DNA of 64,000 nucleotides, taken from the NCBI GenBank assembly GCA_028821195.1, contig JAPPHB010000056.1:1-64000 (forward strand), given 5' to 3'. The position numbers and the translations under genes were made by a program. Numbering within the stretch: the first letter of the stretch is position 1; each line of letters begins with the position of its first letter. Below, piece by piece: positions 32,531-39,616 of the stretch. The notes beneath the pieces are model-generated. The model made no database searches. It was not told the DNA's origin and saw only the letters and a list, made by a program, of their open reading frames with translations. The stretch is from Gammaproteobacteria bacterium. GTDB taxonomy: Bacteria > Gemmatimonadota > Gemmatimonadetes > Longimicrobiales > Gaopeijiaceae.

Positions 32531-33573
32531 CGGGCGAAGAACCCGCTCACCCAGGCCAGGAGGTTCTCGAAGAGCTCCCGGAGCCGATCGGCCCCGGGCA
32601 CCTCGGCGATCCCGGCATTGTCGACCCCCATCAGGATCATCGCCGCCGCGAACAGGACGAGCACTGCGAACGCCGAGATGCTGAGGCCCCGACCCCGGCT
32701 TCGGGAGCCGGTCCCGGGCCCCGCGTCGTCCGCGGGCTGCTCGTGGGCGGAAGCCGGAGCTGCCGGAGCCGACTCCGCTTCGGCCTTGGTGGGTTGCTCT
32801 GCTTCGGCTCTGGCGGGTTCCGGCGCTTCGGCTTCGGTGGGTTCCTCCGCCTCAGCGTCGTCCTCGAATCCATCCCACAGCGAATCCCGATAGGTCTGGC
32901 TCCCGAGGCGGTTCTCTTTCTTTCCGGTCACCATCGTGACCGTAGTACCGTTGGGTGCCGGACCCAGCAGAGCGACGGCATCCCTGAGTCCCACCTTCCC
33001 CAGCGCGGCCATGGGCTCGCCTTTGCACGCCAGCACGATCGAAGGTGTGCCGCGCGGATGGTAGGGCGACTCGGCAACCTGATAGGTGACGACCGTGACA
33101 CCGCCCTCGACCAGGGTAGCAAGGAGACGATGCCACGCCGTCCGGTCGAGCAAACTGTCCGAACTCGCCACAAGCGTCCCCGCCGTTGCCACCCAGAACT
33201 TCTCTTCGTTGGCGGGGCGAGCGATTCGCCTCAGGGAAGCGCCGTACTCGATGGCGTCGGTGATGCCCTCGAGATTCGCGGCGTCGAACGCCCGGTGCAG
33301 ACGGGGCTCGTCGAAACACAGGTCGACAAGCAGCACGCGTGCGCCCCGGGAGGCCCAGTTCCCCGCGATCGCCACAGCGGCGTGGGCGGCCCAATCCTGG
33401 TGCCGTGCCCCGGGCGTGGCCCGAACCGCGACGACGCGCCCTTGCTCGGACCCGACGGGAAGATCGAGTTCCGAGAAGCCGGCGGGGATGTCCCGGGAAA
33501 AATCGAAGGGTTGCAGTTGCAGCGCGGAACGGCCGCGTCCGGCTCGAGCGGATGGGGCGGCACGGGGGTTCAT
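32527..33573 (-). CDS. MinD/BY-kinase-like protein with degenerate P-loop and C-terminal membrane segment
   Basis: A 348-residue protein. Residues ~45-130 follow the layout of bacterial tyrosine-kinase or MinD-type NTPases: a strand VVAVRAT, a loop, the long helix AHAAVAIAGNWASRGARV, then VLLVDLCFDEPRLHRAF in place of the usual LLVDxDxRxPxLH. The loop that should read GKST reads PGARHQD, so the ATP-binding lysine is missing and it is probably not an ATPase. An acidic Ala/Glu/Pro-rich linker follows, then one transmembrane helix (AFAVLVLFAAAMILMGV). It is coupled by 4-bp overlaps to rsfS and smc, which hints at a role in chromosome or cell-cycle organisation, but this is only inference. Confidence 0.7.
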   Translation of the reverse strand: MNPRAAPSARAGRGRSALQLQPFDFSRDIPAGFSELDLPVGSEQGRVVAVRATPGARHQDWAAHAAVAIAGNWASRGARVLLVDLCFDEPRLHRAFDAANLEGITDAIEYGASLRRIARPANEEKFWVATAGTLVASSDSLLDRTAWHRLLATLVEGGVTVVTYQVAESPYHPRGTPSIVLACKGEPMAALGKVGLRDAVALLGPAPNGTTVTMVTGKKENRLGSQTYRDSLWDGFEDDAEAEEPTEAEAPEPARAEAEQPTKAEAESAPAAPASAHEQPADDAGPGTGSRSRGRGLSISAFAVLVLFAAAMILMGVDNAGIAEVPGADRLRELFENLLAWVSGFFAR

Positions 33574-33962
33574 GGCGGGCCGAGCTCCGCGTCTGCCGCA
33601 AGCTCGTGCCTGGGCGCATCCCCCCAGAGCGCCTCCAGCTGATAGAACGACCGCACCTCGGGGTGAAAGACGTGGACCACGAAATCGATGTAGTCGATCA
33701 ACACCCAGCGGGCTTCCCGGCCCCCCTCGGTGTGCGCGGGGCGGGTACCCTCGTTGCGCAGCTCCTTCGTGACGTGGTCCGAGATCGAACGGACCTGGGT
33801 ATCGGAGGTTCCGGTGGCGAGCAGGAAGTAGTCGGTGGCCGAGGAGATGCCGCGCAGGTCGAGCACGACCACGTCGCTGGCCTTGCGTTCGAGCGTCAGT
33901 TGGGCCGCCCGACGGACCGCGGACGGCAGACGGAAATCACCGGAGGAGGCGGCGTCGACCAT
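33570..33962 (-). CDS. rsfS: ribosomal silencing factor RsfS
   Basis: About 130 residues. RsfS binds ribosomal protein L14 on the large subunit and blocks subunit joining when nutrients are low. Family blocks: KASDVVVLDLRGISSATDYF, LLATGTSDTQVRSISDHV and WVLIDYIDFVVHVFHPEVR with YQLEALWGDA. A much longer open frame continues upstream across rplI in another frame and is not real; the ATG at 33960-33962 fits the family start. Only 20 bp separate it from rplI. The stop overlaps the next start by 4 bp. Confidence 0.93.
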   Translation of the reverse strand: MVDAASSGDFRLPSAVRRAAQLTLERKASDVVVLDLRGISSATDYFLLATGTSDTQVRSISDHVTKELRNEGTRPAHTEGGREARWVLIDYIDFVVHVFHPEVRSFYQLEALWGDAPRHELAADAELGPP

Positions 33963-33982
33963 GCGAAAGGCGCCCGGCGGGC

Positions 33983-34438
33983 TCAGCTCGTCCTTTCCAC
34001 GTGCACGGTCACATTGACTTCCACTTCCGCGTGGAGCCTGATCGGGACTTCGAAATCGCCAAGCATCTTGATCGGTTCGGAAAGCAGGACGTGCCGCTTG
34101 TCGAGAACGAAGTCCAGCCCCGAACCGACCGCGCGGTCGGCGATGTCCGCCGCCGTGACCGAGCCGAACAGCTTGTCGGACTCGCCGGCGCGTGCCCGGA
34201 AAACGAGGTGCATGCCCTCCAGCCTGGAGGCGCGCCGCCGTGCTTCCAGGTAATCCTTGCGAGCCCGCTCCTCCGCTCTGCGCTGCTCCTGCTCCAGGCG
34301 TCGGACGTTGGCCGTGGAAGCTTCGTAGGCGAGGCCGCGGGGCAGGAGAAAGTTGCGGGCGTACCCGGGCTTCACGTTCACGACATCGCCCGGTTCCCCG
34401 AGGCGGTCCACGGATTCCTTGAGGATCAGTTTCACCAT
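33983..34438 (-). CDS. rplI: 50S ribosomal protein L9
   Basis: About 151 residues. L9 binds 23S rRNA near the L1 stalk and reaches toward the next ribosome. The N-terminal domain is typical (VKLILKESVDRLGEPGDVV, then VKPGYARNFLLPRGLA), followed by the long connecting helix (RRLEQEQRRAEERARKDY) and the C-terminal domain with LFGSVTAADIAD. The ATG at 34436-34438 has CAGGAG four bases upstream. Order with the upstream genes (S6-S18 fusion, DUF2232 protein, L9) matches the common rpsF-rpsR-rplI arrangement. Confidence 0.97.
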   Translation of the reverse strand: MVKLILKESVDRLGEPGDVVNVKPGYARNFLLPRGLAYEASTANVRRLEQEQRRAEERARKDYLEARRRASRLEGMHLVFRARAGESDKLFGSVTAADIADRAVGSGLDFVLDKRHVLLSEPIKMLGDFEVPIRLHAEVEVNVTVHVERTS

Positions 34439-34505
34439 CCACTCCTGTTTTGTCGAAACATGCGGGCCCGCGCCGGGAGGCGCCACGCGGGCCGGTGGTT
34501 GTCGG

Positions 34506-35429
34506 TCAGGTTCGTCGGGCCCGTGCGCGGATGTCCATCCAGGTGTCGCTCAGCCCGATCAGAAGCGCCACCGCAAAAAGGAAGGGTGCCAGCAGCAGGA
34601 AAGCGAGCGCAAGCAGGACCCATCCGAGAGCCGAGACGCCGCGAGTCAGCGTGACCGCCACGCCGGCGCCGCGCAACGCGTAGAGCGCGCCCATGAAGGC
34701 AAGCAGGTTCAGTCCCACCCGGCCCGCGGCGCCGTCGGGCTGCACGATGAACAGTGCCGCGCCCGCGACCAGCAGCCACACCAGCTGGTCGTCGAACCGG
34801 AAGTCGCGCAGCTCGCCGAGGCCTTCCCCGCTCCCGCGCACGATGCGGACGTAGATCCACCAGGCGGTGCCCAACGCGGCCAGGGAGGACAGTCCGAGCA
34901 TGGCCGGGAACAGGTTGCTCTGCCACTCCGCCGCCTTGAAAACCGTGGTGATCACGGTCCCGGGGAGCGGAGTTCCGTCCCGGAGGATGCGCAGCGCTTC
35001 GAGGGACGTGCTCACTCCGTCGCGCAACCTGGTCGCCACCATCCCGTCGATAATCGCCCAGCGCCGGGGGCTCAGCCCCAGTGCGGCCCATGCGCCGGCA
35101 CCGGAAATCGCGAGAGCCAGCAGGGCACGGGGCAGAAACTTTCGTTCCGGCCAGCGCAATGTCACCGCGGCAAAGCAGCCGCCCAGTATGATCGTCCATC
35201 CACGCTCCACGTACCACAATCCGGATCGCGTGGCGCCGGCCAGGGCGACCACCATCCCCAGGGCGCCGGCCATCACGGGCAAGGCCCGTTTTGCGGGCGA
35301 ACTGAATACGAGACAGGCGAACGGGATCAACACCAGGACGAGGGGGCCGAAGACGGAGAATATCAGCGTGGCGACAAAGAGCGCTCCCGCTCGTCCCCAG
35401 CCCCGCAACGGGGTCCTCGCCCGGACCAC
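34506..35429 (-). CDS. DUF2232 (YybS-like) membrane protein
   Basis: A 307-residue membrane protein with about eight hydrophobic segments, for example GALFVATLIFSVFGPLVLVL and LGWVLLALAFLLLAPFLFAV, and a soluble loop after residue 120. DUF2232 proteins are commonly found next to rplI and rpsR, as here, but their job is unknown; the context suggests a link with translation or cell growth. The gene lies 8 bp after the ribosomal protein gene and about 67 bp before rplI. Confidence 0.75.
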   Translation of the reverse strand: MVRARTPLRGWGRAGALFVATLIFSVFGPLVLVLIPFACLVFSSPAKRALPVMAGALGMVVALAGATRSGLWYVERGWTIILGGCFAAVTLRWPERKFLPRALLALAISGAGAWAALGLSPRRWAIIDGMVATRLRDGVSTSLEALRILRDGTPLPGTVITTVFKAAEWQSNLFPAMLGLSSLAALGTAWWIYVRIVRGSGEGLGELRDFRFDDQLVWLLVAGAALFIVQPDGAAGRVGLNLLAFMGALYALRGAGVAVTLTRGVSALGWVLLALAFLLLAPFLFAVALLIGLSDTWMDIRARARRT

Positions 35430-35437
35430 GGGCGATG

Positions 35438-36094
35438 CTATCCCTCGTGACGGCGCACGTAGGGAAGCAGGGCCAGGTAGCGCGCCCGCTTCACCGCCCG
35501 CCCGAGCTTGCGCTGAAATCCGGCGGCCACGCGGGTCGTGCGCCGGGGCAGCAGCTTGCCCTGCTCGGTGACGAAGCGCGACAAGGTGGCTACATCCTTG
35601 TAGTTCAGGATGGTGATCGGGGGGCCTTCGATGCGCCGGCGGTGACCGCGCCCCCCGGAGAACTCGGGCGGGCTCGTTCGCGACCGGGCGTCATCTTCCG
35701 GTTCCCCGTCCTTTTGCGGGTCGTCGGCATCGTCCTCCTTGCGGGACTCCTCGGAAGCACTGGAAGCCGCGGGGGGCTCGGCCACGACGGACATGCCCGT
35801 GGATGGCTGGCCCTCGTTGAGGACAATGAGATACCGGAGCACGCCCTCGTCGAGCTTCATGATGCGCTCCAGCTCGGGCAGGCTCGTGGGATCGCCGAAG
35901 AACTGCGTCACGACGTAGTAGCCGGAGGTCTGCTTCTGGATGGGGTAGGCGAGCCGCCGGCCGCCCCAGTGGTCCACCACCCCGATTTCGGCGTCCCCGC
36001 CGGATACCAGGCCATGGAATCGCTCCAGCTTCTGCTGGATGGCGTCCTCGCCCAGGGCGGGGTGGAAAATCAAAACGAGTTCGTAGTCGCGCAT
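35438..36094 (-). CDS. fused 30S ribosomal proteins S6 and S18
   Basis: One 218-codon frame encodes both S6 and S18, normally separate genes. Residues 1-96 are S6 ([47 protein letters not shown]). Residues 97-147 are an acidic Ser/Pro/Glu linker ([20 protein letters not shown]). Residues 148-218 are S18 ([47 protein letters not shown]). No stop lies between, and no in-frame ATG, GTG or TTG occurs from residue 105 to the S18 core, so S18 has no start of its own. S6 and S18 are neighbours on the 30S platform, so a tether is structurally sensible. ATG at 36092-36094 has GGGAGAG upstream. The ssb gene usual between them is absent. Confidence 0.88.
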
Positions 36095-36258
36095 GGTCTC
36101 TCCCATGGTCCGCGTGTTGACGGGCCTCGCTCCCTGGAGCGCTGTTCGCGGAAGGATTCGCTCCGGGTCCGAGGCGGGATCGGCACGGGAATATACCCAA
36201 CTCGACCTGAGCTTCAACCCGGGGGCCTCCGCGAGGCGCGGGTCGGGCCGGGACGACG

Positions 36259-37467
36259 TCAGCTCTTCTTCGCCGCCGCCTCCTGCACGGCGAGAATGAG
36301 CGACGGGTAGCGGCTGAACGCCCAGCGCGCCTCCTCGACGTCGAGCCGTTCGCGGTTGGTGTGCGCGTAGCGTTCCTCCCCGGGGGCGAAGCCGATGGTC
36401 GGAATGCCGAACACGCCGCAGGTCCAGCCTCCGTCGGTTGCGAAGGTCCAGGGACGGCAGCGGGCGGCCGTGTCAGGGGCGCCGCGGCGCCCCACCGCGC
36501 CCGCGGCCGCGGTCACCACCGCGTGATCGGGTTCCATGAGAAAGCCCGGCGTAAGCAGGTTGCGGTCGGCGGAGCGGCCGGTGTAGGAGGTCTGGCGCTC
36601 CGAGGCGAGGCGGCATTCGATGGCGTAGCCCGCGGGCACATCCGGGAGCACCTCGGCGATCGCGTCCTTGACGCGCCCGATGAGGCTCGCCTCGGTATCG
36701 GTGGGCAGGATGCGCCAGTCGAGCACCACGATCACTTCGTCGGGGATGACGTTCGGGCTCTCGGGGCGCACCCGGACGTCGGTGGGCGCGAGGCTCGCGG
36801 GCCCCAGAACGGGATCGGACTCCTGCCGCCGCGCGAGAGCGGTGACCCCGGTCAGCACGCCGGGCAGCAGGTCGAGCGCGTTCCGGGCCCGGTCGGGGGC
36901 GCTGGCGTGGCTGGCGAGACCGCGGATCACGACCTCGAGCTGCGCCCGCCCGCGGTGACCCAGAGCGATGTCGCCATAGGTCGACTCGCCGATGATCACC
37001 GCCGCGGGGTTCACCAGGCCCGACCGCACCAGGTGCTCCATGCCCCAGCCGCCCCGCTCCTCGTACACCACCTGCCCCACGATCACGTCGCCGGGCGCGC
37101 GGTTCGCGAGGGCGGCGGCGGCGTAGACCTGGAGCGCCATGGGCCCCTTGATATCCATCGCCCCACGGCCGTGCAGGTGGCCGTCCACGACATCGCCGCA
37201 GAAGGGCGGATGCTCCCATTCCTCGTGCGCCCCCTCGGCGACCACGTCGAGGTGGCAGGAGAGCATCACCGGCGGTGCGTCGCCCCTTCCCTTCACGACG
37301 CCGGCGACGCTGCCCAGCCCGTCGACCTCCACCCGGTCGAATCCCAGCACGCGCATCTCCTCACGGAGGCGGGCGGCGACTTCGCCCTCTTCCCCGCTCA
37401 TGGAGGGGATGCGGATCAGATCCCCGGCAAAGGCCAGGGCGTTTTCGAAGGTCGGCTCGCGGCTCAT
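36259..37467 (-). CDS. M20 family metallopeptidase (ArgE/DapE-like)
   Basis: A 402-residue zinc hydrolase of the M20 family, which cleaves acyl or peptide bonds of small substrates. The metal ligands and catalytic residues stand in [22 protein letters not shown] and [13 protein letters not shown]. The dimerisation insert is present ([20 protein letters not shown]), and a C-terminal His lies in [11 protein letters not shown]. The N-terminus ([16 protein letters not shown]) resembles YgeY and related deacetylase-like members; the exact substrate cannot be told. It lies between hppA and the S6-S18 gene on the same strand. Confidence 0.88.
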
Positions 37468-37498
37468 CGGCTCAGACTCCGGAGGGCAGGCGCGGGGA

Positions 37499-39616
<2,118 letters not shown>

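Follow-up and report, generated by a model that had tools for sequence, protein, structure and literature searches.

The ribosomal proteins bS6 and bS18 are widespread and are known from separate genes, rpsF and rpsR. In E. coli both carry a modified terminus: the C-terminus of S6 receives glutamates from RimK, whereas the N-terminus of S18 is acetylated by RimI. As described in part in a study on E. coli, S6 and S18 form a heterodimer before they meet the rRNA, and together they repress through the rpsF leader, in which two conserved cytosines are contacted by Lys60 and Arg63 of S18; mutation of these residues (K60/R63) weakens binding to the leader (PMC4647458). In Bacteroidia, according to part of a second study, a pocket made up of bS6, bS18 and bS21 lies close to the 3′ tail of 16S rRNA (PMC9976891). 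At the level of genes, the rule that S6 and S18 are encoded separately is broken in the Gemmatimonadota family to which the present DNA belongs, where 109 of 121 genomes encode both in one frame. The product of this frame probably is a tethered S6-S18 heterodimer, a single chain that, judged from its sequence, would enter the 30S platform as one protein and stay joined.

The window (the whole stretch of 64,000 nucleotides that was analysed) contains on its minus strand a single frame of 218 codons, at 35438-36094, which encodes a complete bS6, an acidic linker and a bS18. A preliminary description had proposed one such frame with no stop separating S6 from S18. Its coordinates are right, and the translation from 36094 to 35438 indeed runs through both domains without a stop, up to the stop codon at 35438..35440. 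Both domains score well above all cut-offs. Pfam places Ribosomal_S6 (PF01250) at residues 4-91 (E-value 1.8e-26, 92.6 bits against a cut-off of 27) and Ribosomal_S18 (PF01084) at residues 161-210 (2.4e-19, 69.6 bits against 21), and the NCBIfam equivalog models for S6 (TIGR00166, 80.2 against 42.9) and S18 (TIGR00165, 72.3 against 38.75, aligned from profile position 15) are matched as well; taken together, the extents are 1-92 for S6 and about 160-214 for S18. The linker, previously drawn as residues 97-147, is present, but is better split. The bS6 domain (residues 1-96; 35807..36094) is followed by an acidic low-complexity linker (residues 97-138; 35681..35806), a conserved 20-residue motif in place of the S18 N-terminal tail (residues 139-158; 35621..35680) and the bS18 core (residues 159-218; 35441..35620), all on the minus strand.

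The same-strand gene order is ribose-phosphate pyrophosphokinase, L25, peptidyl-tRNA hydrolase (pth), H+-pyrophosphatase, M20 peptidase, the fusion, a DUF2232 membrane protein (34506..35429), L9 (33983-34486) and RsfS (span searched, 33570-34010), the last three being identified by Pfam on the minus strand. The M20 peptidase and the H+-translocating pyrophosphatase lie between pth and the fused gene, at 36259-39616. Since the presence of Pth and L9 near rpsF-rpsR is a common bacterial arrangement, the fused locus looks native. A search of the complete window genome (99.57% complete, 5.89% contamination, 140 contigs) for another rpsR or rpsF found none: there is one S6 match and one S18 match, both in the fused gene. 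The two SSB-domain matches in this genome are both on other contigs. The earlier suggestion that ssb is gone from between the two genes stands, but its loss was not the last step before fusion, because unfused relatives already lack it at this position.

With the fused protein as query, 116 of the 121 family genomes gave a match and five did not. Among the 109 with the fusion, 95 show one alignment from S6 into S18 with no stop, including two that are cut by contig ends yet span the linker (G026 and G106); the other 14 give two matches in the same frame that form one open frame by coordinates, as was also confirmed in the DNA for seven of them. DNA was taken for 69 of the 109 fused genomes, and in 68 of them the whole fused frame was read, a number far beyond chance; the stretch that leads from residue 96 to the S18 core measures 50-189 codons. 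In two unfused members (G095 and G096), the S6 part is separated from the S18 part by an in-frame TAG. For three genomes the linker is interrupted by the assembly itself, with a run of N in G117 and a contig end in G120 and G123. In G097, S6 and an acidic tandem repeat are encoded in one frame, and the motif and S18 in another; this exception lies inside the fused clade and is either an assembly error or a real break. A contig of G141 (contig 9, from a 60%-complete bin) encodes S6, an SSB recognised by eye, and S18, in sequence unlike that of the family, and is probably foreign.

Five of the fused genomes are single contigs (G014, G031, G034, G080 and G086), of which G014 is a closed contig of 4,224,903 bases. 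Gaopeijia maritima DH-78T, which very probably carries the fusion, is a cultured marine isolate that has been placed in the BD2-11 group, according to part of its description (PMC11651109). Nine related public bins, which overlap with the family genomes, are all fused; five are labelled Gemmatimonadetes, three Gammaproteobacteria and one BD2-11 clade. Three contigs labelled Gammaproteobacteria (JAPPJO010000088.1, VYDD01000233.1 and VXNP01000035.1) contain the fused gene at 94-99% identity; they probably belong to this Gemmatimonadota family and would thus be mislabelled.

Outside the fused clade the two genes are separate at all loci read. In two sister families, 24 genomes were searched and all 14 loci taken for reading are unfused; eight more genomes have S6 and S18 in different frames by coordinates, one (G055) has them on different contigs and one (G058) gave no match. 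Among 395 genomes searched across the phylum, the 72 full-length matches listed outside the family each contain exactly one in-frame stop, these figures covering the matches listed; genes in different frames appear as two shorter matches that are mostly unlisted. In the 14 sister-family loci, and in the two genera of the window's family that are unfused, the S18 core starts 38-43 bases past the S6 stop, which leaves no ssb in that space. The S6 of all these loci has an acidic C-terminal tail. The same succession of acidic S6 tail and S18 recurs in 20 unfused loci that belong to other families of the class and were picked, not at random, from the listed matches with one in-frame stop. Both the acidic tail and the absence of ssb from this space are therefore older than the fusion. 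In unfused relatives the D/E-rich S6 tail stops just ahead of the rpsR start, and in two loci (L062 and L063) it is encoded by GAGGAGG-like DNA. This DNA could double as the Shine-Dalgarno region of rpsR, which may explain both the acidic tail and the lasting adjacency of the genes.

A tree of the S6 and S18 cores (84 rows and 154 columns, without the linker and the motif) places the fused genes, together with those of G097 and G117, in one clade (support 100/96, the bootstrap not quite settled). Its sister consists of two unfused genera with one genome each (100/96), and all rows of the family group together with 98/87. One change of state suffices if G097 and G117 are not counted. The tree of S6 only (97 columns) is badly resolved and needs three changes, but a single fused clade is not rejected (p-AU 0.457). 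One fused member (L026, from G020) has a long-branched S6 half that, in the tree of S6 only, lies closest to an S6 of a sister family; this half was possibly replaced.

In the unfused sister genera, TAG closes the S6 gene, and either AAC ATG or GCC ATG comes next in the frame of S18. With a stop and only two codons in the S18 frame, loss of one stop would have joined the genes. Most likely, the fusion arose once, by loss of the in-frame stop between rpsF and rpsR. In the ancestor, rpsR would have followed rpsF in the same orientation and frame, only a stop and two codons setting S18 apart from the S6 tail. When the stop was lost, the acidic tail of S6 would have become the tether, from which the present linker probably derives; the cysteines of S18 would have been lost and a new basic motif fixed before the S18 core. 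Within the family the fusion looks like a single-event marker.

The connecting segments differ strongly in their evolution. When 11 genomes of the window's genus are compared in all pairs, dN/dS is highest in the linker (0.617), lower in S6 (0.215) and S18 (0.033), and 0 in the motif, where dS is 0.27. Both domains are intact and evolve under purifying selection. The linker evolves as coding sequence, as had been claimed from the window, and its frame is open in 68 genomes. Over the 68 fused proteins, the linker (counted from residue 97 up to a point 20 residues ahead of the S18 core) is 30-169 residues long, with an acidic fraction of 0.19-0.61 and a net charge of -7 to -38 (median -15). In an alignment of the fused proteins, seen in part, the motif reads about PPEFSGxRGRRRRxEGP, and it shows no amino-acid change among the 11 congeners. 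A loose P[PA][EVQP][FY] pattern is absent in three of the 68 proteins, two of which are without the PPEF part (L045 and L097) and one of which has only a variant (L069). The motif lies immediately before the S18 core and has the basic character of the ordinary N-terminal tail of S18 (FRRRK in E. coli).

The S18 part contains no cysteine in any of the 68 fused proteins, whereas the CxxC and CxxH patterns, the cysteines of which presumably bind zinc, are present in 16 of 16 unfused loci of the same order. Cysteine loss as a sufficient cause of the fusion was rejected. Both patterns are also absent in seven of the 20 unfused loci of other families (L112, L113, L117, L118, L120, L123 and L126; a non-random pick, in which some keep one cysteine), and loss of the cysteines thus does not need a fusion. 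The RNA-contact residues of S18 are kept: Lys60 and Arg63 of E. coli S18 align with Lys202 and Arg205 of the fused protein.

Several explanations of what becomes of the fused frame can be compared. It is a negligible possibility that the two genes were joined by mistake when the metagenome bins were sequenced or assembled. The window genome is in 140 contigs with 5.89% contamination, but the fusion recurs in 109 of the 121 family genomes, five of which are single contigs, and an assembly fault is thereby excluded. It is only slightly less far-fetched that S18 is made separately from an internal start and the fusion is a side product. In favour of this, the codon at position -4 from the S18 core is ATG in 20 and GTG in five of the 68 fused members, and the window has an ATG at residue 101 and a GTG at residue 104. 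These two are the sole in-frame starts from residue 97 to the S18 core, the absence of ATG, GTG and TTG between residue 105 and the core being as first described, and a scripted test found no Shine-Dalgarno match at either. Moreover, the -4 codon is no start codon in 43 of the 68 members, including the window; among the -4 starts the scripted test found a Shine-Dalgarno match in L097 only, and initiation at this position would remove the conserved motif. A start codon within 25 codons before the S18 core occurs in 27 of the 68 fused genes, or in six if the variable -4 position is excluded, and no internal start before the core is conserved in the 68 genes. Separate synthesis of S18 from inside the fused frame is, on these sequence features, unlikely.

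A more serious, though still doubtful, rival is that the chain is made whole and is then cut, perhaps near the PPEFSG/RGRRRR motif, to give an acidic-tailed S6 and a basic-tailed S18. Cleavage would fit the sharp conservation of the motif between the fast-evolving linker and S18, and its products would look like the proteins of the relatives, in which S6 has an acidic tail and S18 is separate. However, contact with the ribosome would account just as well for the conservation of a basic motif placed right next to S18, and fused members exist without the PPEF part. The tethered form is judged likelier than cleavage after synthesis. In the tethered form, the ribosome would translate the whole frame, and the S6 and S18 domains would fold and pair within the chain as a normal S6:S18 heterodimer with a flexible acidic tether. 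This pre-paired unit would bind 16S rRNA on the 30S platform as a single protein, its halves remaining covalently joined. In all 68 fused proteins the S18 core begins at least 50 residues beyond residue 96 of S6, and an extended chain spans ∼3.4 Å per residue. The reach of the tether would thus probably be ample if it is extended. An AlphaFold2 model of the fused protein (window protein and nine related sequences) is too poor for docking, with a mean pLDDT of 37.8 and a pTM of 0.26.

More tentatively, with somewhat less than an even chance, the ribosomes of this family may have one protein fewer, with bS6 and bS18 present only as the intact tethered chain in a fixed 1:1 ratio. The PPEFSGxRGRRRRxEGP motif replacing the cysteine site of S18 would then form, with the acidic tether, a new 30S surface element near the 3′ tail of 16S rRNA. 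Loss of the platform neighbour bS21 is ruled out as an explanation of the fusion, bS21 being present in 56 of 59 relatives. No simple link to RimK, the enzyme that modifies the S6 C-terminus, was found either: Rimk_N is absent from all 11 genomes of the genus, and present in nine of 24 other family genomes (all nine fused) and in three of 24 genomes of the sister families.

Directly upstream of the start codon, the mRNA of the fused gene has a conserved leader core, GCCCGU...CGGACC..GGGA, which includes a Shine-Dalgarno-like GGGAG (36101..36125, minus strand). The pattern GCCCG...CGGnCC..GGG, with 13 invariant columns, is common to all 66 aligned family leaders (62 fused and four other loci; identical rows, the near-identical congeners L004, L005, L006, L010 and L011, and L014 with its short upstream region were left out). 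RNAalifold predicts four pairs on these leaders; three are invariant CCG/CGG pairs, so that the pairs are silent on covariation. Just 5′ of the core a possible hairpin is seen by eye in the window (36128..36141, minus strand). In 61 family leaders, with one member of the window's genus and at least two rows (L089 and L099) anchored at a wrong GCCCG, complementarity to the arm before GCCCG gives a mean helix of 5.95 against 5.30 in 300 permutations (highest 5.67); the window's own leader scored only 4 in this test.

This leader resembles the E. coli RpsF leader, as described in part in PMC4647458, in having a conserved CC-bearing element and a Shine-Dalgarno region just before rpsF, but differs in that the Rfam model RpsF_leader (RF02893) does not recognise it. 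The model gave no match in the window at 33400-36900 (E-values up to 5) or in three relatives, L029, L042 and L062 (E-values up to 3), and none of 59 relatives exceeded the cut-off with stricter filters; an E. coli control scored 110.1 bits. These searches do not support homology of the family leader to RpsF_leader. By analogy with E. coli, the fused protein may bind the conserved leader before its start codon and thereby regulate its own production. In view of the failure of the model, shared autoregulation is a proposal and not a result.

The fused gene is the only source of S6 and S18 found in the window genome, and the two proteins thus need not be encoded as separate genes. As S6 and S18 assemble as a heterodimer, the fusion amounts to a tethering experiment done by nature. 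An intact fusion is without the free S6 C-terminus and S18 N-terminus that modification by RimK and RimI needs. With a cultured species that very probably has the fusion, the assembly, platform structure and autoregulation of a tethered pair are open to direct study. The fusion also bears on phylogenomic pipelines that count S6 and S18 as two independent markers.

In the S6-S18 fusion, two known protein families are combined in a new architecture, the genomes searched being those of Gemmatimonadota. Among the papers listed in searches of the open-access literature none is on such a fusion, judged by title and abstract start and with most of the subscription literature outside this scope, in agreement with the preliminary description; among the 60 listed of 138 matching PDB sequences, each matches one domain only. 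Like the loci of separate rpsF and rpsR, the fused locus is preceded by pth and followed by L9, all on one strand, and both domains, including the RNA-contact residues of S18, are retained. Unlike separate bS6 and bS18, the fused protein has no free S6 C-terminus and S18 N-terminus, its S18 has lost the cysteines and it contains a new motif. The closest arrangement is rpsF-stop-rpsR in one frame, which occurs in some members of four other families of Gemmatimonadota (f2, f3, f5 and f7) and in two genera of the window's family. It shares with the fusion the gene order, the acidic S6 tail, the frame and the position of S18 a few codons past the stop, but a stop and a start codon separate S6 and S18. 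A more distant parallel is provided by the eukaryotic ubiquitin-ribosomal protein fusions UBA52 and RPS27A, described, in the sources as far as consulted, as fusion precursors that contain a ribosomal protein. In these precursors the partner is ubiquitin, which is cut off, whereas the S6-S18 fusion joins two ribosomal proteins that are each other's binding partners.
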